Source: Devriesea agamarum
GTDB lineage: Bacteria > Actinomycetota > Actinomycetes > Actinomycetales > Dermabacteraceae
Direction of reading: 5' to 3'
Assembly (NCBI RefSeq): GCF_900070355.1
Contig: NZ_LN849456.1
Span: 930,001-994,000, forward strand
DNA: 64,000 nt
The number at the start of each line of letters is the position of its first letter. Within the stretch, counting starts at the first letter, position 1. The notes beneath the pieces are model-generated. The model was not told where the DNA came from. It searched no databases and saw only the letters and a program-made list of their open reading frames with translations. The position numbers and the translations under genes are program-made. Below, piece after piece: positions 3,192 through 16,733 of the stretch.

Positions 3192-4253
3192 ATGAAGGCG
3201 CTGTTGAAGTCCTCCCCTGCCCCTGGTCTGGAACTCGTGGATATCCCAGAACCTAAGGTCGGACCGGGCGACGTGAAAATCCGTGTGCTGCGGGCAGGTA
3301 TCTGCGGCACTGATCTGCATATTCTCGCTTGGGACACCTCTGCCCAAAGCATGTGCGACACGGTGCCGTTCACACCGGGCCACGAGTTTTACGGTGAAGT
3401 GGTCGAGATCGGCGCCGACGTGACGGATGTTCGGCTCGGGGATCGGGTCTCCGGCGAAGGACACGTAGTGTGCGGATACTGCCGAAACTGCCGTGCAGGC
3501 CGCCGCCAGATGTGCATCCGCACTCGCAGCGTAGGGGTGCAACGCGACGGAGCCTTCGCCGAATACGTCACCATTCCCCAGCACAATGTGTGGGTTCACG
3601 AACATGACGGAAAAACTGAGGTGATTCCCCCTGAACTCGGCGCCGTTTTCGATCCACTCGGTAATGCAGTCCACACCGCCTTGAAGTTCCCCTTGATCGG
3701 GGAAGATGTGCTGGTGACCGGTGCGGGCCCGATCGGTCAAATGGCTGCGGCCGTAGCCCGCCATGCCGGCGCTCGATATATCGCAATCACTGACGTCAGC
3801 GCCCACCGCCTGGAGATGGCCAAAAACATGGGTGTGGACCTCACGGTCGACGTGTCGCAAAGCAGTATCCGCGATGCCCAGAGGCGCCTTGGTCTTAAAG
3901 AGGGTTTCGACATCGGCTTAGAAATATCGGGGCAGCCCAGTGCCATCGCCGAAATGATAGAGAACATGAACCACGGTGGGAAGATCGCCCTGCTGGGCCT
4001 ACCTTCTAAGGATTTCACCCTCAATTTCGGGGTGGTGATCACCCATATGCTCACGCTCCAAGGCATTTACGGGCGTGAGATGTATGAAACCTGGAATGCC
4101 GTGGCGGCCATGATGATGACAAGCGCTCACTTACGCGGCCAGATCCTCGCGACAATCTCCGATGTCCTTCCAGCCTCACAATGGGCTCGCGGTTATGAAA
4201 TCGCCCGCTCGGGCAGCGGTGGAAAAGTCGTCCTCGACTGGGAGAATATTTGA
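3192..4253 (+). CDS. tdh: L-threonine 3-dehydrogenase
   Basis: This 353-residue zinc medium-chain dehydrogenase oxidises L-threonine to 2-amino-3-ketobutyrate with NAD+. The catalytic zinc ligands Cys38 (GICGTD) and His64-Glu65 (TPGHE) are present, as are the four structural-zinc cysteines 94, 97, 100 and 108. VTGAGPIGQMAAAVA marks the nucleotide-binding fold. Similarity to E. coli Tdh runs along the whole chain, including GDRVSGEGH, DPLGNAVHTAL and GIYGREMYETW. An AAGGAAG site lies just ahead of the ATG. The next gene, kbl, supplies the partner enzyme that cleaves the unstable ketone product, so function is well supported by context. The two genes are separated by 115 bp, still likely one transcript. 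Confidence 0.95.
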   Translation: MKALLKSSPAPGLELVDIPEPKVGPGDVKIRVLRAGICGTDLHILAWDTSAQSMCDTVPFTPGHEFYGEVVEIGADVTDVRLGDRVSGEGHVVCGYCRNCRAGRRQMCIRTRSVGVQRDGAFAEYVTIPQHNVWVHEHDGKTEVIPPELGAVFDPLGNAVHTALKFPLIGEDVLVTGAGPIGQMAAAVARHAGARYIAITDVSAHRLEMAKNMGVDLTVDVSQSSIRDAQRRLGLKEGFDIGLEISGQPSAIAEMIENMNHGGKIALLGLPSKDFTLNFGVVITHMLTLQGIYGREMYETWNAVAAMMMTSAHLRGQILATISDVLPASQWARGYEIARSGSGGKVVLDWENI

Positions 4254-4368
4254 GTAAAGGTGCGGGCCTGCACCACCCCGGCAGATCAACGCACCCCATA
4301 CTGTGTCACCGTCCGACTGGGGCCGTCACGTGACAACGGCCTGACCATATCCTCACGGGAGAAAAGCT

Positions 4369-5595
4369 ATGTACACCGATCTGAAGTCTCAGTTACACGC
4401 TGAGCTCGACGATATCCGCGAGGCGGGAACCTATAAAGCCGAGCGCACTTTAACCACGCCCCAGTCAGCGCACGTCCTGGCGGCGATGCCGGGACGTTCA
4501 GCACAGAAGGTCCTCAATTTCTGCGCAAATAACTACCTCGGCCTCGCGGACCATCCCGATCTCATTGCCGCAGCAAAGTCATCGCTGGACAGCCACGGAT
4601 TCGGAATGGCGAGCGTGCGATTCATCTGCGGTACGCAGGATACCCACGTCGAATTGGAACGTCGCGTGAGTGAATTCCTGGGCACCGACGACACTATTTT
4701 GTTTTCCTCGTGTTTCGACGCCAATGGGGGTGTGTTTGAATCACTCTTTGGGCCGGAGGACGCGATTGTCTCCGATGAGCTCAACCATGCCTCCTTGATT
4801 GATGGCATCCGCCTATCGAAAGCAGCCCGGTTCCGTTACCGCAACGCCGACATGGACGAACTTCGCGCTCAGTTGGAGACGGTGCGCACCTTGCGCGAAG
4901 GGCGCGGGGCGCGGCGAACTGTGATCGTGACCGACGGTGTGTTTTCCATGGATGGTTATCTGGCTCCGCTGCCTGAGATCTGTGATCTCGCGGATGAGTT
5001 CGGCGCGCTAGTTCTGGTCGATGATTCGCATGCGGTCGGTTTTATGGGGGCAACCGGGGCGGGTACGCCGGAGCATTTTGGAGTGAGTGACCGGGTCGAT
5101 CTCTACACCGGCACCTTCGGTAAGGCTCTCGGCGGTGCCAGCGGAGGTTATGTCTCCGGCCACGCTGAAATCATCGAGTTGTTGCGTCAACGGGCGCGCC
5201 CGTACCTGTTTTCCAACTCGTTGGCTCCTGCCATTGTGGCTGCGACCCTCACGGCTTTAGATCTGGTCGCGCACAGCGGTGATCTACGGACGCGCCTGTT
5301 CGATAACGCCTCCTTGTTCCGGCGCCGGATGAGCGAGGAAGGATTCGATCTGCTGCCCGGTGAGCACGCGATTGTTCCGGTGATGTTCGGTGATGCCGCT
5401 CTGGCTGGGCGCATCGCAGATTCCCTGCTCTCCCACGGCGTCTATGTCACAGCGTTCTCGTACCCGGTCGTCCCGCAGGGTAAGGCGCGTATCCGTGTGC
5501 AGTTGTCCGCCGCGCACACCCCGCAGGATATTGAGGCCTGCGTAGCCGCCTTTGTGTCGGCGCGCGACGAGGTGATGGCGGCGGACAACTGCTGA
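4369..5595 (+). CDS. kbl: Glycine C-acetyltransferase (2-amino-3-ketobutyrate CoA ligase)
   Basis: This 408-residue PLP enzyme of the alpha-oxoamine synthase family splits 2-amino-3-ketobutyrate with CoA into glycine and acetyl-CoA, the second step of threonine breakdown after Tdh. The PLP lysine is Lys252 in [13 protein letters not shown]; the cofactor aspartate and histidine appear in [13 protein letters not shown]. The N-terminal [15 protein letters not shown] is typical of Kbl. Length matches the family (about 400). A GGGAGAAAAG site precedes the ATG. The gene ends only 14 bp before the convergent dhaM stop, with no obvious terminator in between, so read-through antisense to dhaM is possible. 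Confidence 0.95.
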
Positions 5596-5609
5596 ACCGG
5601 TAATGGCAC

Positions 5610-6170
5610 TTAGGCGTTGCCAGTGACCGTGCGCAAATGCTCTTGTTTCGCCTCGCCGGCAATATTGGCATCCTCGGCGACTTGGTCAAGGTCAGCGCCT
5701 GACGCGGCTGCCACGACAGCCCCGATCAATCCTTCGACCAGCGGCGCCGGAGATAACTGCACCTTGGCAGCGATATCCGGGTCGATAAACTCTAAGGCCG
5801 TTTCTGCGGCAAGAACCGCGCTGCCTAGATCCATCAGCACCAGCACACCCTGCGCATCTGCCACGGCTTGAATAGCATCGGCGATGGCCGCAGCGTCGGT
5901 GCCTAGCTCCCACTGTTGTGCGTTATCGCCTCCGCCGCAGTCTGTTGCGCTCTTGGGACCAGGTTGGGGGTCGCACTCTCGAGCGTCTGCGTTGTCATGA
6001 GTATCAGCGGTTTCGTGAGCATCGGCAGTCTCTCGTGATGTGCTGTGCCGACGGATTCCAGCGGCAATGCGGATCGGAAGGTCAGCGCTGCCGGGAATCA
6101 TTTGGCTTGCGAGATCGACAGCAGCGCGTGCCAAAGGGTACGAGTGAGAAACGATCACAATACCGGTCAT
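5610..6170 (-). CDS. dhaM: PTS-dependent dihydroxyacetone kinase, phosphotransferase subunit DhaM
   Basis: DhaM has an EIIA-mannose-type fold and passes phosphate from HPr to the ADP held by DhaL. His9 in IVIVSHS is the expected phospho-acceptor. Only the EIIA-like domain is present; there is no fused HPr or EI part. Between about residues 38 and 85 lies an inserted, low-complexity stretch rich in Ala, Asp, His and Thr (imperfect repeats like ETADAHETADTHDNADA) where other DhaM proteins have a short loop before the GTDA segment. That makes the protein 186 residues instead of about 135. The ATG overlaps the dhaL stop in an ATGA, so the two are translationally coupled. Confidence 0.9.
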   Translation of the reverse strand: MTGIVIVSHSYPLARAAVDLASQMIPGSADLPIRIAAGIRRHSTSRETADAHETADTHDNADARECDPQPGPKSATDCGGGDNAQQWELGTDAAAIADAIQAVADAQGVLVLMDLGSAVLAAETALEFIDPDIAAKVQLSPAPLVEGLIGAVVAAASGADLDQVAEDANIAGEAKQEHLRTVTGNA

Positions 6171-6880
6171 TGGCCATCCTCCGGGTCAGAACCGTTCGGC
6201 GATGTTGTATCGGCCCCGGCATCGGTAGCGGGGGCCAGGGTTTCTGCTGCCGTTGACCATAAAATCGCGGTCGATGCGCTACCGGGATCAATGTGCCCTA
6301 CTGAACGTTCCCCGAGGTAAGAAGCACGTCCCTTGGTTGCGGCGAGATTGCGGGTGGCATCGCGCCCACTGGCCGCGGCTTCGGCTCCACTTTCCAACGC
6401 ACCGGCTAGGTCATCGGGAGCGACAGTAAGTTGCTGCTCCATCGCATCGAGTGCGGGCAGCCAAGCATCTAACATGGTTTTCTCTCCTGCTTGGGCCTTA
6501 CCCCGCTGGCAGATTCCCTCCACGCCGGCGCGCAGAGCCGCACCCCAGGCGCGAGCATCCAGGCTCTCAGCGCTTCCGGCACTGGTTCCGGCGCGTAGAA
6601 AAAACGTTCCGTACAGCGGGCCCGACGCCCCACCGATGGTGGAGACCAGCGTCATTCCGACTTTCTTGAGAAGCTCCCCCGGTGTGCTCAATTCATGCTG
6701 GTCGAGCAGGGATCGTACGGCGGTAAAACCTCGGGCCATATTCGCGCCATGATCTGCGTCGCCGATCGCAGCGTCTAATTCGGTGAGGTAACTGGCCTGA
6801 GCGTCAATGTCATCGGCTGCCCGCCGCAGCCATGCCTCCACCTCGTGAAGCCCTACGGTGTGCTTAGTTGTGTCGGTCAT
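6167..6880 (-). CDS. dhaL: Dihydroxyacetone kinase, ADP-binding subunit DhaL
   Basis: DhaL holds ADP as a fixed cofactor, accepts phosphate from DhaM and gives it to dihydroxyacetone bound to DhaK. The Mg-ADP aspartates are visible as Asp36, Asp41 and Asp43 in LDAAIGDADHG. The start chosen is the ATG at 6880, preceded by AGGAAGG; the frame is open further upstream (to 7021) but that would overlap dhaK and add unrelated residues. The product is 237 residues, slightly long because of an Asp/Ser/Pro-rich tail. It sits 79 bp after dhaK and overlaps dhaM by 4 bp. Confidence 0.93.
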   Translation of the reverse strand: MTDTTKHTVGLHEVEAWLRRAADDIDAQASYLTELDAAIGDADHGANMARGFTAVRSLLDQHELSTPGELLKKVGMTLVSTIGGASGPLYGTFFLRAGTSAGSAESLDARAWGAALRAGVEGICQRGKAQAGEKTMLDAWLPALDAMEQQLTVAPDDLAGALESGAEAAASGRDATRNLAATKGRASYLGERSVGHIDPGSASTAILWSTAAETLAPATDAGADTTSPNGSDPEDGQ

Positions 6881-6959
6881 CGCCGAACCTTCCTCATGCA
6901 TGTTCTGATAGCACTGTTTTCCGACACCCCGGTCAGTTCTTTGACAGGAGTGTGGTTCG

Positions 6960-7958
6960 TTATCGTCCCCAGCGCATTCCTGGGGTCTCAACCGGGGCAT
7001 CCCATAGGCGAATGAGCTCATCGCTGACGGGAAGCACCGTGAGGGAGCACCCCGCCATATCGAGACTCGTGATGTAGTTACCCACCAAGCTGCGCTCGAC
7101 GTGGATTCCCCGTTTGCTCAGTAGCGCATCGATTTCGCCGGACATTAGGTACAGCTCTAACAGCGGGGTGCCACCCATTCCGTTGACCATCATGATGACC
7201 CGGTCGGCATCCGGCATTTCTGCAAGGACCGGTTCTATCAGCTGTTCGGCAATGTCGTGGGCAGGGGCAAGAGGTACCCGATGCCGCCCTGGTTCACCAT
7301 GGATACCAATACCAATTTCAATCTCGTCCTCGGGAAGGTCGAAGGACGGTTTTCCGTGCGCGGGAACCGTGCAGGAGGTGAGCGCCAGCCCGAGAGAACG
7401 ACCTGTGTCGATAACTTTCTGCGCAATGGCTGCAACCTCGTCGAGGCTTTGGCCTTCCTCAGCCGCGGCGCCAGCGATCTTTTCGACGAGAACCGTGAGG
7501 CCCACTCCCCGGCGCCCGGCGGTATATAGGGAATCCTCAACAGCGACATCATCGTTGACCACGACGGATGCGACCCGGACTCCGTGCTCAGCCTCGACGA
7601 TTTCCGCGGCCATCTCAAAATTCATGACGTCGCCGGTGTAGTTCTTCACGATATGCAAAACTCCAGCACCCGCATCGACTGCATGCGTCGCAGCAATAAT
7701 CTGGTCCGGGACTGGGGACGTGAAAACTTCTCCTGCACAGGCGGCATCTAGCATCCCGTATCCGACGAAGCCGCCGTGTAACGGCTCATGCCCAGAACCC
7801 CCACCCGAGACCAGCGCCACTTTGCCCCGTTGCTTAGGTGTGGCCCTGAGAACTACGCGATGCTCGTGGTCAACGCGCAGATGATGAGGGTGGGCCGCCG
7901 CCATACCCCGGAGGGCATCCGCAACGACAGTGTCAGCGGTATTGATGAGCTTTTTCAT
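6960..7958 (-). CDS. dhaK: Dihydroxyacetone kinase, substrate-binding subunit DhaK
   Basis: DhaK binds dihydroxyacetone covalently through a histidine: His220 in GIGIHGEPG. The early VSGGGSGHEPLHGGFVGYGML and NYTGDVMNFEMA blocks are diagnostic. Length is 332 residues, usual for the family. It is the first gene of the dhaK-dhaL-dhaM operon, which converts dihydroxyacetone to dihydroxyacetone phosphate with PEP as final phosphate donor, in the cytoplasm. No DhaR/DhaS-type regulator is seen beside it; the gene upstream on the same strand encodes an ImmA/IrrE-like protein of probable mobile origin. Confidence 0.95.
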   Translation of the reverse strand: MKKLINTADTVVADALRGMAAAHPHHLRVDHEHRVVLRATPKQRGKVALVSGGGSGHEPLHGGFVGYGMLDAACAGEVFTSPVPDQIIAATHAVDAGAGVLHIVKNYTGDVMNFEMAAEIVEAEHGVRVASVVVNDDVAVEDSLYTAGRRGVGLTVLVEKIAGAAAEEGQSLDEVAAIAQKVIDTGRSLGLALTSCTVPAHGKPSFDLPEDEIEIGIGIHGEPGRHRVPLAPAHDIAEQLIEPVLAEMPDADRVIMMVNGMGGTPLLELYLMSGEIDALLSKRGIHVERSLVGNYITSLDMAGCSLTVLPVSDELIRLWDAPVETPGMRWGR

Positions 7959-8033
7959 AATCGAACTCTAGCGCCCTGCTGTGACCCGCAGCTTCACTCT
8001 GCACAATGGTGCACGGTGCCATCGACCGGGTGG

Positions 8034-8465
8034 CTAGGCGGCAAGTTCGAGGTCGGAGCACACCTTAGAAACTGCCTTCCGTTCATCTGCGTTCAGCCGG
8101 TCGAGCCTGGTCGCAACCGTTGCTGGCATCACCCACAGCTCATCAGCGAGTTCTTGCAGGTCACGGGTCCAGCGTAGCGCCCAGACGAGGTCATCGAGTG
8201 AGATCAGCCTGCGAGCTGTTTCCTCCTCGACGCTGCGCTCCTCTGCTGCGCTGCATGGGTTTCGATGCCCGCGCTCTAAGTGAATCGTTTCATGACAGAT
8301 AGCCACGCGGCGCTCTGCCTGAACCAGTCGTGAGCGCAGTCTAATCAGAGCGATGCCGTCCGTTTCAGCGAGACGGCCAGCAGGAAGCTCGCCATATTCG
8401 ACGCGCACATGGGGCCAGTGATCACGAAGATGACGCCAGGGATGATGAAGTTCGCGCGGAGACAT
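8034..8465 (-). CDS. ImmA/IrrE-type metallopeptidase-like protein
   Basis: This 143-residue protein has an HETIHLERGH motif (HExxH type) near residue 58, in the place used by ImmA/IrrE (COG2856-like) proteins. Such proteins usually cut or antagonise the repressor of an adjacent phage or integrative element. It follows the HTH gene at 8517-9101 on the same strand, 51 bp downstream, which is the usual regulator/antirepressor arrangement. The C-terminal half (from about residue 75) looks like a small helical domain. No signal peptide or membrane segment. Assignment rests on the zinc motif, size and neighbour; which protein it cleaves is unknown. Confidence 0.7.
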   Translation of the reverse strand: MSPRELHHPWRHLRDHWPHVRVEYGELPAGRLAETDGIALIRLRSRLVQAERRVAICHETIHLERGHRNPCSAAEERSVEEETARRLISLDDLVWALRWTRDLQELADELWVMPATVATRLDRLNADERKAVSKVCSDLELAA

Positions 8466-8516
8466 ATCGCCATCCTAGGGATGAGCCATGACATACGAAC
8501 TCATCGTGGGGCGCGT

Positions 8517-9101
8517 TCATTCCTCGGGTTCTCCTCCATGCTCACCGCTTTGTGGCTCTTCGCCATGCTCGCCGTACTGCGGTTCTTCTCCCAGCTCTTC
8601 AGATAGGGCATCGAGGTAGTCACGGATCGAGGTTCCAGACATCGCCGCACGATCCTGTTCATCTGCCGCAGCACCAATGGTGGGAGCAGGAGGGACTGGG
8701 CGAACGGTGCCCGGTTTCACCAATGGCACGACGCCGTTTCCATTGTGTGCACCGGCAGCACGCGCTCTATCGAGCCGACGTGCGATCTCAGCAAGCAATG
8801 CCATGTCCGATGCTTGCGAGAGGTGTGTTTCTTCGGTTACCCGATGTAGTTCCTGCTCCTGGGGTCGTAGCCTCGGTTCGTGACCGTCACGCAACCGGGC
8901 GAGATCACCGCGCTCCCAGCCGAGTTCCTTTTCAATCTTGGCTCGGTTGACCTCGAGTGGCCAGCGTTCGCCTCGCTCCAGAGACCGGAGAGTTTTATCG
9001 GTCACGCCCGCACGGTCAGCAAGAGCGTTCATGCTGAGCCTGAGATCTACGCGGCGCGCGGTTACTTTACGTCCAACTCTCTTGAGGGCATCATCAGTCA
9101 T
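8517..9101 (-). CDS. Helix-turn-helix (XRE-type) repressor with repeat-bearing acidic tail
   Basis: An XRE-type HTH occupies about residues 5-60, with the pattern LSMNALADRAGVTDKTLRSLE. The rest is a hydrophilic linker and a C-terminal tail with two 9-residue repeats of the type EEPQxGEHG followed by a third partial copy (coded by 27-bp repeats at about 8520-8590). The start is placed at the ATG at 9101 behind a GGTGGTG stretch; the open frame extends to 9242 but that part would cover the presumed operator. It is divergent from a second HTH gene and followed by the ImmA/IrrE-like gene, so it is the likely repressor of a phage-type switch. 194 residues. Confidence 0.75.
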   Translation of the reverse strand: MTDDALKRVGRKVTARRVDLRLSMNALADRAGVTDKTLRSLERGERWPLEVNRAKIEKELGWERGDLARLRDGHEPRLRPQEQELHRVTEETHLSQASDMALLAEIARRLDRARAAGAHNGNGVVPLVKPGTVRPVPPAPTIGAAADEQDRAAMSGTSIRDYLDALSEELGEEPQYGEHGEEPQSGEHGGEPEE

Positions 9102-9190
9102 GACACCACCACACCAGAAACGCGGAGAAACAGCAAGGGGTTCTTTATAAATCGGCTCGGGCGTTTTACATGGGGAAGTACTGAAAACTC

Positions 9191-9210
9191 GGTTTACAAA
9201 ATGGTAAACC
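9191..9210. promoter_or_regulatory. Palindromic operator candidate between two divergent HTH genes
   Basis: A perfect inverted repeat GGTTTAC-N6-GTAAACC lies in the 202-bp gap between the divergent HTH genes. Related half-sites occur nearby (GTTTTAC near 9166, GGTACACC at 9233-9240). Its position fits a repressor operator acting on both promoters. That a local HTH protein binds it is inference. Confidence 0.5.
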
Positions 9211-9267
9211 CACAGCAAGTTACGTTTCCTCTGGTACACCAAACTACAGAATGATTCTTGATGTTAC

Positions 9268-9297
9268 TTGACATCTTTCCCCTAGTTTCCCTATCGT
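9268..9297 (+). promoter_or_regulatory. Sigma-70-type promoter, probably giving a leaderless mRNA
   Basis: TTGACA at 9268-9273 and TATCGT at 9292-9297 are separated by 18 bp. The expected start of transcription, about 7 bp after the -10 hexamer, falls on or next to the ATG at 9304, and no Shine-Dalgarno site is present. The transcript would therefore be leaderless, common in actinobacteria. Confidence 0.5.
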
Positions 9298-9303
9298 TTT
9301 GTC

Positions 9304-9591
9304 ATGAATATGCTGACTCGCAACCCAATGGACAGCGAACGAGTGGGCGCCACACTCCGCGGGTTCCGAGAGCTACGAGGCTACACAACAGGGCAGTTTG
9401 CTCAGACCCTAGGGATATCCAGATCCCATCTCGCCAACATCGAAGCCGGCCGTAAACGCCTCACCAATGTGCTCTTAGCGCGGGCCGCGAACGCGCTCGA
9501 CATCCCCCAAATTGCCATCATGCGATCCGAGGAGGCCCCAGCAGCTGACATCCCAGCGAGCTCCGTTAAGCAGGGCTCTGCCCCGCCCTAG
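9304..9591 (+). CDS. Small XRE-family helix-turn-helix regulator
   Basis: This 95-residue protein is almost entirely an XRE HTH: TGQFAQTLGISRSHLANIEAGRKRLT at about residues 29-54 holds the two DNA-binding helices. It is short like Cro-type regulators. A strong promoter ends about 7 bp before the first ATG, which suggests leaderless translation; a second in-frame ATG at 9328 is an alternative start. Together with the divergent HTH gene and the ImmA/IrrE-like gene it looks like the control module of a phage or integrative element, but no integrase, portal or other element genes are found in the neighbourhood. It ends at a perfect terminator hairpin. Confidence 0.8.
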   Translation: MNMLTRNPMDSERVGATLRGFRELRGYTTGQFAQTLGISRSHLANIEAGRKRLTNVLLARAANALDIPQIAIMRSEEAPAADIPASSVKQGSAPP

Positions 9592-9633
9592 ACCCCTTGA
9601 TCACGAGAACGGATCGATGCCGAGCGGGGCAGC

Positions 9634-9667
9634 TCTGGTCAGCCCGCGAACTCGCGGGCTGACCAGA
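9634..9667. terminator. Hairpin terminator between convergent genes
   Basis: Two perfect 15-nt arms (TCTGGTCAGCCCGCG and its complement) enclose an AACT loop. It lies between the small HTH gene (+) and the protease gene (-), so it can end transcription from both sides. No long T-run follows. Confidence 0.8.
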
Positions 9668-9693
9668 GAAAACAGCGAAACTAAGGTTGAGGT

Positions 9694-10947
9694 TCAGCTG
9701 TTATACCCGTAGGACAGGCCGTAGTAATTGAGGGCATCGTTAATCGGCTGGAAGTACGACCAGCCACTCACATACCCGCCGTTAAACCGGCAGCCCTGCC
9801 CCTGCGGAGAACCTGAGGTCATACCTACCGCATAACCATTGGAGGTGTAGGCACCGCCCGAGTCCCCCTCGGACACACAGATATCCGCAACACCGAGCCC
9901 GCTCACCTGAGCAACCACATTGCCTCGTTTATCCGTGTAGGTGACTGAGGTGTTGTAACCACGGATCGGACCACAGGTGATACCGGTGGTCGCACCCGAC
10001 TTGCAGGTGTCCGTTCCAATCGGCGCTTTCCACGTGCCCTGGGAAGCGTTCGACGGCAGCTCCCCGCTGACACCCCACTTATTCACATCTGTGCTGACCC
10101 GCGTACCCTCCGCCAACACGATGTATCCCAGATCCCGGTCAGGCTGGCCATCGTAAGAATGGAACGCGGTTTGGCCAGCACGCGAGACTAGCGAACCATT
10201 AGAGGTGTAGATGCCGTTACCGGTATTCACACAGTGGCCTGCCCACACCATGACAGGGGTGCCATCTTGTGCGGTGGCAGGGAAGCCCGCCGAGCAGTAA
10301 CCACCATCGCCGAACAGCATCTTGTCGCCGCCATGAACAGTCGCGGCGGCTTGTACCTGTTCGCCACGAACAACCGTGACAGCATCGCCATAAGATTGCG
10401 CGGCTTCAAGCAGAACCGGATCAGCCTTGTCGCTAAACACCGTCACGACGACCTTGTCCTGCGTAACATCTGGCATCACAGACGACACACCCGTACGGTC
10501 AGACTTCACCGCCGCCAGCTCGCCGACAATCTGGTCAAGCTTTTTCTCACCATACTTTGGAGCCCGAACCACAAGGCCGGCTTCCCTAGCTGCCTCCGCG
10601 GCAGAGGAACCTTCGCTCGCCTGCACCACGAGGTTGTTATCGACGCCGAAGAAGGCCCCGTCGTAACGGTATCCTTCCTGATGCAGTTTTGCGTACGCAT
10701 TGTTCTGGCGAGCCTGCTGCACTACATGTTCTTTTTGGTCTGACACTGAACGCCCGGAGCTCTTCGCCATCACACCAATTTCTTCATCGGTGAAGTGCGA
10801 TGAAATCGTTTTGGCGTCGGCGCTCGAAACGCTTCCGATACTCGACGGCTGGGGCTTGGTATCGCCTGGCGAGGCCAGAGCCGGGCTAGCGGTCATCATT
10901 ATCGCTGCGGCACCAGCGGCGACAGCGAAACTCTTAGTGATCTTCAT
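9694..10947 (-). CDS. Secreted S1 serine protease (streptogrisin/alpha-lytic type) with pro-region
   Basis: A 417-residue prepro-enzyme. Residues 1-25 are a Sec signal peptide (KITKSF, hydrophobic core, ALA-S cleavage). About residues 45-200 form an alpha-lytic-protease-type pro-domain that assists folding and is removed. The mature protease starts near residue 200, with catalytic His238 (WAGHC), Asp272 (DRDLGYI) and Ser363 (EGDSGGAY). Six cysteines (218/239, 315/325, 357/386) fit the three disulphides of this family. It would act outside the cell on proteins. It is a lone gene, with a hairpin terminator downstream and a 618-bp gene-free region upstream, next to accessory genes. Substrate preference cannot be read reliably. 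Confidence 0.93.
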   Translation of the reverse strand: MKITKSFAVAAGAAAIMMTASPALASPGDTKPQPSSIGSVSSADAKTISSHFTDEEIGVMAKSSGRSVSDQKEHVVQQARQNNAYAKLHQEGYRYDGAFFGVDNNLVVQASEGSSAAEAAREAGLVVRAPKYGEKKLDQIVGELAAVKSDRTGVSSVMPDVTQDKVVVTVFSDKADPVLLEAAQSYGDAVTVVRGEQVQAAATVHGGDKMLFGDGGYCSAGFPATAQDGTPVMVWAGHCVNTGNGIYTSNGSLVSRAGQTAFHSYDGQPDRDLGYIVLAEGTRVSTDVNKWGVSGELPSNASQGTWKAPIGTDTCKSGATTGITCGPIRGYNTSVTYTDKRGNVVAQVSGLGVADICVSEGDSGGAYTSNGYAVGMTSGSPQGQGCRFNGGYVSGWSYFQPINDALNYYGLSYGYNS

Positions 10948-11565
10948 GGAGGTCTTCTTTCAGGAGAGAAACAAACGACCCGATACACCACCGGGACCGT
11001 CTACTCGGGAGGAAGAGTCGAAGCGACGGAGCCTCGACGTCCACGTAGACGACCCGAACGTAACAAGACGAGGATTACGGGCGGAACCTCAGTTGGTACC
11101 GTTTGCCCCACACTTTGGTACACATCAGACCTTTCCCCTTCGCGCCGTGTTCCTGCACCTATCGTCTATCGGCTCGCCCCCCATTTATTGGCCCGCACCG
11201 AGCGTGAGGAACTCTCCCCCTTGCCTCGCACGCGGCGTACCGATCGGACGAGGGCGCCTTGTCGAGCAGACAGTGAGCTAGGAGTTCTCGGAGGTCGGCC
11301 CGTCCCTGCCAGTGCGCACCCGTCCCCAGCGCCGGTCATACTCATGTTCACGAGCCCCAAGCATCCACAGGCCGACAGACAGGATCTCCCCTATTGGAAA
11401 TTTTCAGATCGCAGCTCTCCCACACCTATAATTTTCGACCCAGGCAAAGACTACTCACACAACCGTTACCAAGCAGGTTATCCACCCATAGGATCAGCTA
11501 TAGCAAAGTCTTAAACAATGAGACCCAAATAAAATAAGCAAATAGCTTCCACAAGAACCTCGAGG
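10948..11565. other. Gene-free region upstream of the protease gene
   Basis: I see no convincing gene here. Short open frames exist on both strands but lack family features and good ribosome sites. The half next to 10948 should hold the protease promoter; the part from about 11400 is AT-richer than its surroundings. Confidence 0.5.
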
Positions 11566-12495
11566 TTAACGATATAATTCAATCGCACCTAAGCGGATAC
11601 GCACACTTTTTTTGTCGATAGCAATACGGTCATGATAGCGAAGGCACAGGGGTGAGAAAATCGCACCTAAAATACTAAACCATGGAACCGGGTAGTCGAC
11701 GTTTCGCCCAAACGGATCTAACGCAGGGTGTTCAGCGAGAATACGGTGGAAATAATCGAGTCGCCTATCCACTTCGGATAGCCATTCGGCAGCAAGCTGA
11801 GTGTGCGGCCGAAATGCGTGCGCCGCTTGATAAAGAATCCGTTCATGATGAATATTCTGGTCGATACCGAGCCGACCCCCAAGGGCGGGCGTCACGTTGC
11901 CCCCATTCTCCGGCAATCCTACCGCCCATACTGAGGGGTTGGAATTGAGGCGGTCGACCCATACCGAAGCTCGCCCCTGGAACGGCTTAATATCAAGGTA
12001 GACCCCGCCGTGATGATACATAAAATACGCTCGGAGATAATCTGCGCGGTGCACTAAAGACAGGTGTTCATAGGCCGGATGCAATGGATACCCGTCAACA
12101 ATCCACTCGTCGAGATTTTTCGGCGTCACCACAACAACATCAAGATCAGGATTCTCATCACGGACAATTTTTACCGAGTTTAAGCGGTTCGGGGTCATCT
12201 CATTATCGCCAGTCCACATTAAGAAAATCTTTCGCGGCGCGACGCAGCCTTCATCGGAAGAATAATGCGCCGGAAGACGCAAATGATCGATCGGAAACGT
12301 GCTCGAGGTGGGCATAGCAAACGCACCCTGGCCCCATGAGGTGTCTGCATAACGCTCCGGACGATATCGATATCCGAAGGTTCGGGAGTACCCTTGCTGG
12401 ACCTTGAACGTGGCCACGCGGCGCTTAGTGCGTGCACGCTTACGGGCAACGAATCCAAGATGCTTGACCTCGCGGGCGATACTCAACAAATCCAT
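11566..12495 (-). CDS. Glycosyltransferase of the capsular polysaccharide synthesis (Caps_synth) type
   Basis: This 309-residue protein has the marks of the GT32-like/Caps_synth family: PRKIFLMWTGDNEMTPNRL near residue 88 and, further on, HRADYLRAYFMYHHGG followed by the DXD-like VYLDIKP, which binds the metal and nucleotide sugar. A basic N-terminus (RKRARTKRR) precedes the catalytic domain; there is no clear membrane segment, so it is probably cytoplasmic or peripheral. It probably adds a sugar to a surface glycan. It stands alone, without the flippase, polymerase or other transferases of a capsule locus, which suggests an isolated accessory gene. Donor and acceptor unknown. Confidence 0.75.
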   Translation of the reverse strand: MDLLSIAREVKHLGFVARKRARTKRRVATFKVQQGYSRTFGYRYRPERYADTSWGQGAFAMPTSSTFPIDHLRLPAHYSSDEGCVAPRKIFLMWTGDNEMTPNRLNSVKIVRDENPDLDVVVVTPKNLDEWIVDGYPLHPAYEHLSLVHRADYLRAYFMYHHGGVYLDIKPFQGRASVWVDRLNSNPSVWAVGLPENGGNVTPALGGRLGIDQNIHHERILYQAAHAFRPHTQLAAEWLSEVDRRLDYFHRILAEHPALDPFGRNVDYPVPWFSILGAIFSPLCLRYHDRIAIDKKSVRIRLGAIELYR

Positions 12496-13323
12496 GACCC
12501 CATCATCTCAGACCTTGAGGCACATAGATGCCACTGTGCTTGCGATGGAGGGTAAAACGCTAATCGAGGTTGAACTGCGGCAAATACTCAGCTACAGCTG
12601 GACCTGCATCCCACACAGCAGTGAGACCAACAGCTGGACCCCAATCCCCATCTTCGTCCCCATCCTCAGCATCGTCTAGCTAAGGTGGGCGATACGGACG
12701 GTGACATAGATAAAGCCAGCCTCGACATAGATAAAGCCAGCCTCGCCCCGACTTTTCATCGACTCCACAGAACAGGTCGCCGACACGTCACCGTGTACGC
12801 AGCAAACCTTACTGAGCAAACCACGCCACCGTTACAGCTCCGCACACGATAGCAAGAGAAACCCATATTGACATGAACATAAACGCGATAAAGCAAAGAA
12901 TTAAAAAGCTAGGGTCCCGGCACACAGCCAAGTTTTAACACAATGTCCGCGAACACCCTAACCCTTACATCTATTGTTCACGATCAAGCCCACAGCTTCA
13001 GTTCGCCAGCATTTACTTCGGAGCCTGTTTTATTTCACCTTACAGTTCATATCTTCAAAAGGCGCAGCAGAGAATATATCTCACATATCAGCCTTCAGAG
13101 TGTGCACCGCCGCAAACCACGTCGCAGTGATCGAAGTGGCAGATGAGGACGAAGTGCAAGGCTTGGCGCCCGCGGGCACAGCTGGCCAGCGGTAAGCTAC
13201 CGACTTTCTGGTACCCCTGGCCTATACCTGGACCCTACCTACTCCGAGGCAGAACAACCTATGATTCAACTAGTCGGGCCAATTCACGTATGGTCGGCCC
13301 CATGCCAAGAAAAGGAGCCTCCC
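12496..13323. other. Gene-free region, AT-richer, with a short tandem duplication
   Basis: No gene can be supported. Small open frames at about 12404-12679 and 12943-13195 lack features and start signals. The region holds a perfect 21-bp duplication (12703-12744). The right end carries the ribosome site of the next gene. Confidence 0.5.
12703..12744. repeat. Perfect tandem duplication of 21 bp
   Basis: GACATAGATAAAGCCAGCCT plus one C occurs twice head to tail at 12703-12723 and 12724-12744 without mismatch. It is in non-coding sequence. Confidence 0.9.
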
Positions 13324-13695
13324 GTGCATGAACTCTACCTATCGACCCGACGTATCGTCGCACTATTTTTGATCGCTGGCCTCTTGCTATTTGTAGCGTT
13401 CAGCTTCATGCGGGAATCAGGGCTGCCCGCACTGGTGAGCTGTGGAGCTGCTCTCACCGCCATCCTTCCTCTTGGCTTTGCCGCGACGGCATCGACACCC
13501 CGATTTAACCTCGATACGGTGGCTTTCGTTCTCGCGATGCTCGCCGTCGCGGTATGTGCGGGCGGATCTGTTCACAGCGCATTTGATCTGACATATGCCC
13601 CAGCGCTCGTCGCCTCGCTGATCTATGCGACGATGGCGGTCATACTCCGAGTCGAAGCGTCGCCGACTAAGAACACCAAGACCTTGCACTCTTAG
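13324..13695 (+). CDS. Small four-helix membrane protein, function unknown
   Basis: I start it at the GTG at 13324 because AAAGGAG lies 6 bp ahead; the frame is open to an ATG at 13261 without such a site. The product of 123 residues has four hydrophobic stretches at roughly residues 12-28, 35-54, 63-80 and 88-105, with short polar ends, so it should sit in the cytoplasmic membrane. I recognise no family. It stands alone between two gene-free regions. Coding status rests on the ribosome site and the regular spacing of the hydrophobic segments. Confidence 0.6.
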   Translation: MHELYLSTRRIVALFLIAGLLLFVAFSFMRESGLPALVSCGAALTAILPLGFAATASTPRFNLDTVAFVLAMLAVAVCAGGSVHSAFDLTYAPALVASLIYATMAVILRVEASPTKNTKTLHS

Positions 13696-14373
13696 TTATC
13701 CGTCTAATACTTGGCGCAGTAGAAAATCAAGAACACGACGCAAAGCTTCTGGCAAAAAACTTATATAGAAATTTGCATCATCTTTTAAGCTAGTGCATCA
13801 GCTTTTAGGTACCACATCATTTGTTGAACTACCGGCATCCTTGACGGACGTCCTCAGCAACAGCTATACCCTGAAATTCATGGTCCTGTGTTTAAACTAG
13901 GAGAACCCGTTAAAGAACGTTATTGATCGGCAAAGACAGCGATATAGATAAGCAATAACAATCCCGCAAAACACGAGTCACTTTTATCCAAGAAATTCCC
14001 CGCGCCGACCCGATTTTAGATATCACAACCCGCCACTTACCTTGCCCGCATCACAGCAGAGGCTTCACGACTGAAATATATCCCTGGAGGCGCTTGCCAT
14101 TGCTAGACATGCATACCTACCGATAACCGATCCGGGAGTGAGTGGTAAGCGGACCGACAGAAGGTTAGTGGCAGACAATTTCGGCACCTTCATGCCCAGC
14201 AGCCCTGCTTACATCAACTCCTGCGCCTGGCATATCCAGTCCTGCGTCTCAAAGACATCGATTTCACAGTCAACGGACCTGGTAAATACCGTGAACATCT
14301 AGCCTGCGTGCTGACCGACTGCTCGATGCTACTCGTGTGGCGTCCCCCGAGCTCGCGCACCAACGCCCCCCGT
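13696..14373. other. Gene-free, possibly decayed region
   Basis: The left part (to about 14000) is AT-rich and has stops in all frames. From about 14160 to 14385 one plus-strand frame stays open for about 70 codons and reads like protein (for example LRLKDIDFTVNGPGKY) but has no start codon and ends in a stop before the MFS gene. It may be the remnant of a lost gene; I cannot name it. Confidence 0.35.
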
Positions 14374-15645
14374 TTAGACCTTTAACGCACCGGACTCCAC
14401 GCGTCTATCGAGCTGGAGGACTCTACGCGCTAAAAGCGCCGCCATACCAGCTGCGATACCTCCACACATCAACCCAATCCAGCCGCTACCGATCGATGCG
14501 AGTGCTCCACCCGCTGCGGCACCAACCGCCGATCCCAGAGCAGCAACTACTCTGACGGTGCTAAAGGTTTGAGCGAGGACATCGCCTGGAACAACTACCT
14601 GACGTAGCGTCCCATTAGCAACGTTAAAGATCACCGCGACCACCATGACAAGTGCTTCTAAGCAGATCAATACCCCAAATGCGGACGCGCCTTGTGCGGC
14701 TACCCATCCCATGACCGTAAACAAGAGGCCGGCTGCCGCCGTGGATAGGTGCAGGCTCCGCACTATGCCGAGCCGGTTGGTCATAGAACCCGCAACAATG
14801 CCACCGAGAATACCGCCAACAGCCGCGGACGAGGTGAACACCGCAAATAGTCCGCTGGATAGACCCCAAACTTTGAGGATCAAGATCGGCATAATCGTTG
14901 CGGCCATGCCTTCCACCACATTAAATGTAGCCGACAAGGCGGTTGCTGACGCCACCAAACGGTCTGTTAGCACCACCCGAAATCCGTGCGCGAGCTGCGT
15001 CCGGTAGCTAGATTTCTGAGCCGGACCAGCACCTTCACACTGTCGCGGGTCATCATGGTTCACCGCACGCAGAGTAAGAAACGACAGGAGGTAGGCCATG
15101 GCAATGACAAGCAAAACCATTCCCGGTGCTACAGCGGTCGCAAGAGAGGCCGCAATCACCGGCATCACCACGCCACCAGTTGAGATCAGGGTCGATAACC
15201 GCGCGTTATCACGGGTAAGCACATCAGAGCGACCCGCAATATCGGGAAGAACCGCGTAAAAGGCATTGTGGAAAAGGCCTGCCAAGGAGCTCATCAAGAG
15301 CAGTGCAGATAATGCCCACAGAACATTAATCCATTGAAACAGCAGAGCAGCGGCCACAGTGACCGTGAGCAGTGCCCGTGCAAGGTCGAGCCAGGATAAA
15401 ACTGCAATGAGTTGGCGGCCTGCAAAAAACGGCGCTAAAAATAGCGGAACAACCGCTAAGACGGCATACTCAGCAGAGTTCGCCAGCCCAAACAAGTCTT
15501 CGCTCACGTGCAAGACCTGAAGGAAGACCAGCGCCCAAAGAAAAGCCCACGCTTGGTCGCACACAATGGAAAGCGACTGCCCCGCCCAGAAAACTGAACG
15601 ACGCGACATTCTTAAGGATGAAAACATCAACCTCATGCGAGCCAC
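14374..15645 (-). CDS. Major facilitator superfamily transporter
   Basis: A 423-residue protein with about 12 hydrophobic segments, arranged as two six-helix halves. Between them (about residues 200-215) is a short cytoplasmic loop rich in polar residues. The chain resembles the EntS-like MFS_3 exporters, with VGGILGGIVAGSMTNRLGIVRSL as the loop 8-9 type motif. Such proteins export siderophores, macrolides or other small molecules with protons. The first codons overlap by 13 bp a 58-codon open frame upstream (15633-15809), which would couple their translation. Substrate unknown. Confidence 0.85.
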   Translation of the reverse strand: MARMRLMFSSLRMSRRSVFWAGQSLSIVCDQAWAFLWALVFLQVLHVSEDLFGLANSAEYAVLAVVPLFLAPFFAGRQLIAVLSWLDLARALLTVTVAAALLFQWINVLWALSALLLMSSLAGLFHNAFYAVLPDIAGRSDVLTRDNARLSTLISTGGVVMPVIAASLATAVAPGMVLLVIAMAYLLSFLTLRAVNHDDPRQCEGAGPAQKSSYRTQLAHGFRVVLTDRLVASATALSATFNVVEGMAATIMPILILKVWGLSSGLFAVFTSSAAVGGILGGIVAGSMTNRLGIVRSLHLSTAAAGLLFTVMGWVAAQGASAFGVLICLEALVMVVAVIFNVANGTLRQVVVPGDVLAQTFSTVRVVAALGSAVGAAAGGALASIGSGWIGLMCGGIAAGMAALLARRVLQLDRRVESGALKV

Positions 15646-15809
15646 CGTTCCGTCTCTCTTGGTCGACCAATCATGACCCGTATATTGGCAGCCTCTTCAA
15701 TGCCTGTACGGCGGTGATCACCCTCAATGATGGACGATCCGGTCAGGTTAGGCTCGCTCATGGTCGGTGTAGCTGCGTTAGATACCATCGCGGTGGGAGT
15801 CATGTACAT
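15633..15809 (-). CDS. Possible 58-residue protein overlapping the MFS gene start
   Basis: An open frame on the same strand as the MFS gene ends 13 bp inside it. The ATG at 15809 has GAGGA about 11 bp upstream. The peptide is polar and contains SSIIEGDHRRTGIEEA, which faintly recalls the EGxHR loop of ParB/Srx-type domains, too little to assign. It could be a short regulator, a peptide exported by the MFS protein, or chance. The frame is open further upstream to 15938 without a better start. Confidence 0.35.
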   Translation of the reverse strand: MYMTPTAMVSNAATPTMSEPNLTGSSIIEGDHRRTGIEEAANIRVMIGRPRETERWLA

Positions 15810-15995
15810 TCGGTTCGCTATCCTCAGACCAGAGACCGACAAAACACTATTCCTGCAATCACCCAGAAATTGATATACAGTCCACCATATCGGACACGTT
15901 GGTCTTTGTGAACAAGAGGCAGCATCGGGCTCTTGCACATTCCGTCAACAGGTCAAGAGTCAACACCGGAGAGGTCATGTCGGTGGGACAGCCTA

Positions 15996-16733
15996 CTACC
16001 CATCCATATCCCCACTATGAACGATGCCCTTCACGATGCCGTGTGCGAGCGGAATGAATATCGCGAAGGCCGCTAGAGCAGGCACGAAGATCGCGACCCA
16101 TGGAATCACTATGGCGAACGCACAGGTCACCACACCCAATGCGACAAACACCCATCTTAATCTGCGCATACTGATGCGAAACCCGTCACGGTAGCCGTCG
16201 ACGAACCCATACATCCGTTTAGGGAGGAATGCTCGCTGTTCGTCGGTCAGCGGCGCAAACTTTCCCATCGAGTTACCGAGAATGATTAACAACAGACCGA
16301 GGCAGAATGCAAGCACGCTCAGTCCCGCGGTGATTTCTAGGTGAGTCGCAAGGGACAGTATCAGCACATGCACCCCAAACAATGTGACCGAAACCGCTGT
16401 CAGAGCCAATGACGAGGACCATTCGTTAACCTGGTCCGTTTTCCACAACGGCAGCTTTACCGCCCGAGCTACACGGCGACGGATCGGCTGGGCCACGAAA
16501 ATAGTCACCGTCACCAGCACGAGCAGGAGGGGCATGAAAAGCGCGAATACCCACCCAGGATAAGTAAGCGTTGAACCATTGCGCTGGGTGGTTTCGACTC
16601 CGCCAGCTAACGAGGGCCACATCCAAATACTGACTGTGACCATGGCTAGAGTCGTGACGAGAGCTAGTACCCCACCCCGCCAAGGCCGGAGTTTCGTTCG
16701 ATCCTCTGCTACCTGCTCCAATGTGCTCATCAT
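15996..16733 (-). CDS. SdpI-like multi-span membrane protein
   Basis: This 245-residue protein has about six to seven hydrophobic segments: two in the first 85 residues, two near 105-155, and two or three after 190. The segment ILGNSMGKFAPLT resembles the conserved GNxxGK... motif of SdpI, the immunity and sensor protein for the Bacillus SDP toxin. The first codon overlaps the stop of an SdpR-like ArsR gene (ATGA), the same pairing as in sdpRI. Inference: it protects the membrane or senses a peptide by binding the repressor. No SdpC-type toxin gene is present nearby. The SdpI link is drawn from one motif plus the gene pair, so it is tentative. Confidence 0.6.
   Translation of the reverse strand: MMSTLEQVAEDRTKLRPWRGGVLALVTTLAMVTVSIWMWPSLAGGVETTQRNGSTLTYPGWVFALFMPLLLVLVTVTIFVAQPIRRRVARAVKLPLWKTDQVNEWSSSLALTAVSVTLFGVHVLILSLATHLEITAGLSVLAFCLGLLLIILGNSMGKFAPLTDEQRAFLPKRMYGFVDGYRDGFRISMRRLRWVFVALGVVTCAFAIVIPWVAIFVPALAAFAIFIPLAHGIVKGIVHSGDMDG

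Follow-up and report, generated by a model that had tools for sequence, protein, structure and literature searches.

We suggest that three adjacent genes in Devriesea agamarum are what remains in the chromosome of a prophage that has otherwise been lost, namely its immunity (lysis-lysogeny) region, which is of the type seen in the temperate actinophages Lton, Madeline and Cashline; on the strength of sequence comparisons, we assign a probability of roughly 0.8 to this reading. The genes lie in a 64-kb stretch of DNA, referred to here as the window, that corresponds to bases 930001-994000 of the single-contig 2.96-Mb genome (Table 1). The sequence-only reading had described a three-gene control module made up of an ImmA/IrrE-like protein, an HTH repressor with an acidic tail and a divergent Cro-like protein, and this description holds: all three frames are open at these coordinates, and the HTH and HExxH motifs are intact. 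Open frames are not required of a decaying remnant, and in this respect they speak against a remnant origin. The GC3 of the module (0.53-0.68) is similar to that of the neighbouring genes and, therefore, a foreign base composition of the module was rejected. On the cro side, the inverted repeat between cro and the secreted protease gene is a possible terminator, although our terminator scan did not report it. The secreted protease has a 60% identical paralogue at genome positions 1185094-1186335 and is rare among relatives (three of 38 other genomes at E 0.001, two of these at more than 50% identity).

Table 1. Features of the module and its borders (window positions).
Feature	Position	Strand	Description
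dhaK	6960-7958	-	Borders the module on the ImmA side
Gap between ImmA gene and dhaK	7959-8033	-	75 bp; holds the dhaK promoter, TAGAGT 6 nt before the ATG
ImmA/IrrE-like (M78-type) metallopeptidase gene	8034-8465	-	143 aa; HETIH at residues 58-62
CI-like repressor gene	8517-9101	-	194 aa; N-terminal HTH and acidic repeat tail
Divergent promoter/operator region	9102-9303	unstranded	202 bp; 44% GC
Palindrome GGTTTAC-N6-GTAAACC	9191-9210	unstranded	Candidate operator
cro promoter candidate TTGACA-18-TATCGT	9268-9297	+	Ends 6 nt before the cro ATG
Cro-like HTH gene	9304-9591	+	95 aa
Inverted repeat	9633-9668		17 bp, perfect, 2-nt loop; lies where cro and the protease gene converge
Secreted protease gene	9694-10947	-	Borders the module on the cro side; convergent with cro

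The phage origin is supported by a search of 50,697 phage records, in which Lton tops the match listings of all three module proteins. The ImmA-like protein matches 264 records, 256 of which are named Gordonia or Mycobacterium phages, all at less than 60% identity; its identity to gp36 of Gordonia phage Lton is 52.5%. The Cro-like protein, which matches HTH_31 (E 2.9e-11), has 35 matching records with best identities of 62-69%, i.e. 62% to Lton, where the match extends slightly beyond the annotated Cro, and 69% over 68 aa to Madeline, Cashline and Ohgeesy. The repressor matches HTH_3 (E 1.2e-5) and eight phage records from six phages, in all cases with its N-terminal domain only; it is 47% identical to the Lton immunity repressor over residues 1-84 and 53.8% identical to the proteins of Madeline, Ohgeesy and Cashline over 65 aa. 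The six phages matched by the repressor also account for the eight best matches of Cro, a pattern that would follow if the two genes move as a unit. Beyond its HTH domain, the repressor ends in the acidic repeats EEPQYGEHG-EEPQSGEHG-GEPEE. In size it is near the prophage repressor of one relative (locus L022, 182 aa; 31% identity over 103 aa); among 57 relatives it has no close counterpart, with four weak matches (best E 9.5e-5), and a search of viral contigs with the repressor returned nothing.

The arrangement of the genes points in the same direction. We inspected the genomic regions of nine phages and one plasmid among the 264 ImmA records. In Lton, the order is cro / immunity repressor - IrrE-like protein - small HTH - integrase, and the gene order and orientation in the window are those of Lton for all three proteins. 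The Cashline region resembles the Lton arrangement, while additional genes separate the repressor from the protease, or from the gene in its place, in Murp, Madeline, Ohgeesy and prophiGD11-1. The gene in the protease position is annotated as metalloprotease or IrrE-like in Lton, Cashline, Madeline and Ohgeesy, as peptidase in prophiGD11-1 and as HTH protein in Murp. Thus, in both the module and the Lton-type immunity regions, cro and the repressor gene diverge and encode homologous HTH domains, with a protease gene located downstream of the repressor gene. However, in the window no integrase, excisionase, antirepressor or small HTH gene follows the ImmA-like gene, the repressor is shorter than that of Lton (194 aa against 282 aa), and the operator words have diverged from those of these phages.

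The assignment of the ImmA-like protein is based on its match to PHROG 87 'metallo-protease' (E 4.9e-12) and on its predicted fold, with the score for Pfam M78 (PF06114) being below the gathering cut-off (17.1 vs 22 bits). The HExxH histidines and glutamate are invariant in the aligned ImmA sequences (8/8 and 6/6). The AlphaFold model (pLDDT 89) has CapP as its best structural match (Z 10.7, rmsd 5.1 over 134 residues) and also resembles IrrE (Z 8.6, rmsd 4.1 over 125 residues; IrrE/PprI chains Z 8.6 to 7.7), where the Z scores were computed among the chains that Foldseek ranked highest and, according to the tool's own warning, middling Z scores are common. Foldseek alone gave E values above 0.05 throughout. 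By the Z scores, the model agrees with the fold of solved M78 proteins. Comparison of the ImmA profile with PDB sequences gave E values of 0.2-0.62 only, and as a single-sequence query against genome contigs and viral contigs the protein confirmed no relative. Elsewhere in the genome, another M78 peptidase-like frame (1406089-1406454) is interrupted by a single in-frame TGA shortly ahead of its HELGH motif and seems to be a pseudogene; at genome position 1946182, a further M78-like stretch has no stop codon.

Because CapP is the best structural match, we considered that the module could be the control pair of an anti-phage defence operon of the CapH/CapP type. The Cro-like protein also has a weak match to the PADLOC capH model (E 2e-7), and the module shares with CapH/CapP and DdrO/IrrE the protease fold and, by analogy, the repressor-protease logic. 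Yet, at E 0.001, PADLOC models found no match among ten proteins flanking the module (3192-16733), and all three module genes match phage immunity regions. We regard this explanation as extremely improbable.

What sets the module apart from its counterparts is its isolation. A tblastn panel of phage integrases, excisionase, antirepressors, terminase, portal and capsid proteins (E 1e-3) found nothing in the 64-kb window other than the module, and none of five Phage_integrase places in the genome is inside the window. These results agree with the earlier description of a module flanked by dhaK and a secreted protease gene and having no integrase, excisionase or structural gene beside it. By contrast, in all 12 chromosomal loci examined, the ImmA gene has a tyrosine or serine recombinase gene at a distance of 4 to 1452 bp; the recombinase family was confirmed by Pfam in eight loci and by tblastn with phage integrases in the other four. 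At least six of the 12 loci (L021, L025, L026, L027, L090, L092) also have antirepressor genes near ImmA. The 12 loci come from seven family members and five other named actinobacteria. The family members derive from a search of 58 genomes, the D. agamarum genome included and none of the other genomes being from the same genus, in which eight others matched ImmA and seven were examined (G044, with 31% identity over 75 aa at E 1.1e-4, was left out); prophage-like loci bearing ImmA occur in seven of 35 other genomes of the family. Similarly, an integrase gene is downstream of ImmA in 14 of 18 viral contigs, the other four ending 24-239 bp after the ImmA match, although the 18 contigs are not 18 independent cases because they include near-identical entries and known phages already counted among the phage records; an integrase is also present in all four viral contigs retrieved with Cro. 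Of all loci examined, only the copy in the window is an orphan. In one relative (L024:9518-9930), a prophage ImmA-like gene is divided between two reading frames, probably by a frameshift.

The close linkage of integrase genes to ImmA homologues in relatives is the observation that the sequence-only reading had named as refuting its view, by pointing to an ordinary prophage remnant. Its own suggestion that the module is the control part of an element lost by deletion is strengthened by the Lton match and by this linkage; for the deletion itself, which we infer to have affected both sides of the module, neither a scar nor an empty site came to light. Specifically, the regions 7851-8060 and 9561-9800 share no word of at least 10 bases, so that no att-like repeat flanks the module, and this speaks against a remnant origin. 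Nor did we find at the module what would mark a prophage as complete or inducible, namely an integrase gene, structural genes and att repeats on both sides.

The intergenic region between cro and the repressor gene gives a mixed picture. The GGTTTAC palindrome proposed as operator occurs once in the 2.96-Mb genome and, when searched for elsewhere, had no further copy. Lton and Madeline also carry palindromes at a similar place in the cro-repressor gap. However, a perfect 7+7 palindrome with a spacer of 0-10 nt arises in 268 of 2000 dinucleotide shuffles (13%) of the 202-bp AT-rich gap, and in 179 of 2000 if the spacer is limited to 6 nt. The palindrome by itself is thus not beyond chance, and its role as candidate operator is statistically weak. 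In the gaps of Lton, Madeline, Murp, prophiGD11-1, Cashline and Ohgeesy, repeated GGGAAC/GGAACA operator words are over-represented (reached by 0-8 of 500 shuffles). By contrast, the window gap has no equivalent of these words, its best repeated 6-mer being ordinary (219 of 500 shuffles), and this mismatch argues against a remnant origin from such phages. The gap contains four GTTTC/GAAAC words, a number reached by 9 of 1000 shuffles, which is a hint only because this count was picked after inspection. The cro promoter candidate has TTTCCC-like elements in its spacer and is the sole promoter-like site in 7900-9750; with 0.6 such sites expected from shuffles, its presence alone proves nothing. 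By inspection, comparable cro promoters with TTCC-type spacer elements are found in Lton, prophiGD11-1, Murp and Cashline, a likeness that favors the phage origin. In these phages, the -10 box lies 7 nt before an ATG, which in Murp and Cashline is upstream of the annotated start.

The same region bears on the idea that the module has been domesticated to control host genes, e.g. dhaKLM or the neighbouring secreted protease gene. M78-repressor pairs that control other genes are described elsewhere, i.e. DdrO/IrrE and CapH/CapP (PMC10233336). Moreover, the repressor, ImmA and dhaK genes point in the same direction, and our terminator scan reported none between the module and dhaK, so that read-through from the repressor promoter across the short gap into dhaKLM is possible. 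However, the only two palindrome sites with one mismatch are by inspection inside coding frames (rsmI and a lipid-kinase-like gene), and allowing up to three mismatches yields 80 sites in the genome against 68 for the reversed control; the palindrome was, therefore, rejected as the operator of a regulon. In addition, dhaK keeps a promoter of its own. Among relatives, a TAnnnT box located 5-8 nt ahead of the dhaK start is present in 13 of 29 loci, a subset of a longer list of matches, against 1 of about 290 control positions. All 13 are among the 17 loci of at least 65% identity, while the remaining four of these and all 12 loci of lower identity have no box. This promoter is conserved in relatives in which the ImmA search showed no copy beside dhaK, and the module thus sits upstream of an intact host promoter. 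In other words, the uniqueness of the palindrome and the intact dhaK promoter give no sign of a new regulon. Together with the lack of close repressor counterparts among the 57 relatives, these findings make the domestication proposed in the sequence-only reading very unlikely.

If the module is a phage immunity remnant, how would it work? Its proteins are, we infer, active. The repressor would repress the cro promoter as well as its own promoter. Once activated, possibly by DNA damage in analogy to ImmR-ImmA (PMC10233336) and to MpaR of Listeria (PMC6872733), the ImmA-like protease would cleave or otherwise inactivate the repressor and, after removal of the repressor, Cro would take over. As no lytic genes are attached, the switch would now yield only its own three gene products and repress incoming phages that have the same operators, perhaps along with some read-through into dhaKLM. 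In the ImmR-ImmA pairs of ICEBs1 and TnSmu1, the gene of an HTH repressor precedes that of an ImmA/IrrE-family protease with an HExxH motif (PMC10233336). The window module has the same order; however, those pairs reside in an ICE, while our tblastn panel found no recombination genes by the module. A toxin-antitoxin pair was also considered and rejected, as phage homology accounts for the genes. The authors of the work on TnSmu1 likewise judged its pair not to be a toxin-antitoxin system; over-expression in E. coli had a minor effect for ImmA and a moderate effect for ImmR (PMC10233336).

The present role of the remnant is likely residual superinfection immunity, or none. A phage-derived module might also have been kept by selection as an immunity cassette, with the repressor protecting the host from phages with the same operators, an explanation compatible with a remnant origin. 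The open frames, the intact HTH and HExxH motifs and the neighbour-like GC3 favor such retention; moreover, phages of this kind are plausibly met, given the frequency of ImmA-bearing prophage-like loci in the family, and superinfection immunity is named as the most likely advantage of prophages in a review (PMC6379469). On the other hand, the repressor alone suffices for protection, yet cro and the ImmA gene are intact too, and a recent deletion would also leave the frames open. We consider retention by selection a tentative explanation, with a chance somewhat below even.

The genome also contains an intact-looking 42-kb prophage at about 589852-632128 with terminase, portal, capsid, endolysin, integrase and antirepressor genes. 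It is bounded by exact 85-bp att-like repeats, the right one of which overlaps a tRNA-Asn gene. A repressor-like HTH gene (631793-632095) runs into the repeat and the tRNA gene, and a fragment that shares the text of this gene and ends in -RPVRTPVAA lies beside the integrase gene. In integration-dependent immunity of the BPs type, as described, the repressor carries an ssrA-like -AA tag and attP is inside its gene beside the integrase gene (PMC5559632, PMC9934374); from its sequence, the resident prophage looks like such a system with its own repressor. Unlike in this type of immunity, the window repressor has no -AA tag, its C-terminus being GEPEE, and no adjoining integrase. As the missing immunity region of the resident prophage the module was rejected, because that prophage has its own repressor-like genes. 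Searches of the genome with ImmA and PF06114 gave no match in 584-650 kb, with the reservation that PF06114 also missed the ImmA-like protein of the window; the absence of TerL_ATPase (PF03354) matches in the genome is uninformative because the terminase of the resident prophage is recognised by PHROG 9. This prophage also has four short HTH frames that resemble one another and stand in tandem immediately behind the integrase gene (591010-592117) and a cluster of many small proteins (622891-628053), two of which were tested and match anti-repressor families, while others are BRO/ANT-like by eye.

The presence of a second element raises the idea that the trio persists owing to a continuing role of its ImmA-like protease, or of its repressor, in controlling when the resident prophage is induced. 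The model for such control is MpaR of Listeria, described as a protease of a cryptic phage element that induces co-resident prophages lacking a protease of their own; short versions of the monocin locus with three to six genes that retain mpaR are also described (PMC6872733). As in the cI-like/MpaR system, a repressor-protease switch in D. agamarum shares the genome with another prophage; however, the window module has no lytic genes, and action in trans is here only hypothetical. That the resident prophage has an integration-dependent look and its own repressor speaks against control in trans. Such control could be envisaged from the co-residence of the two elements, and we consider it very unlikely; if it does occur, the module would amount to an actinobacterial version of the MpaR system pared down to a switch of three genes.

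This type of switch is already known, and only its isolation is unusual. In the literature covered, with subscription journals mostly outside the scope, we found no bare repressor-ImmA-cro module, which is weak evidence of novelty. D. agamarum offers a clean case of a phage switch that is complete although the phage itself is missing, alongside an intact-looking prophage elsewhere in the genome. Apart from this, the module is an ordinary annotation result; as a test case, it allows one to ask whether such a switch persists as protection, as a trans regulator of other prophages, or as debris.
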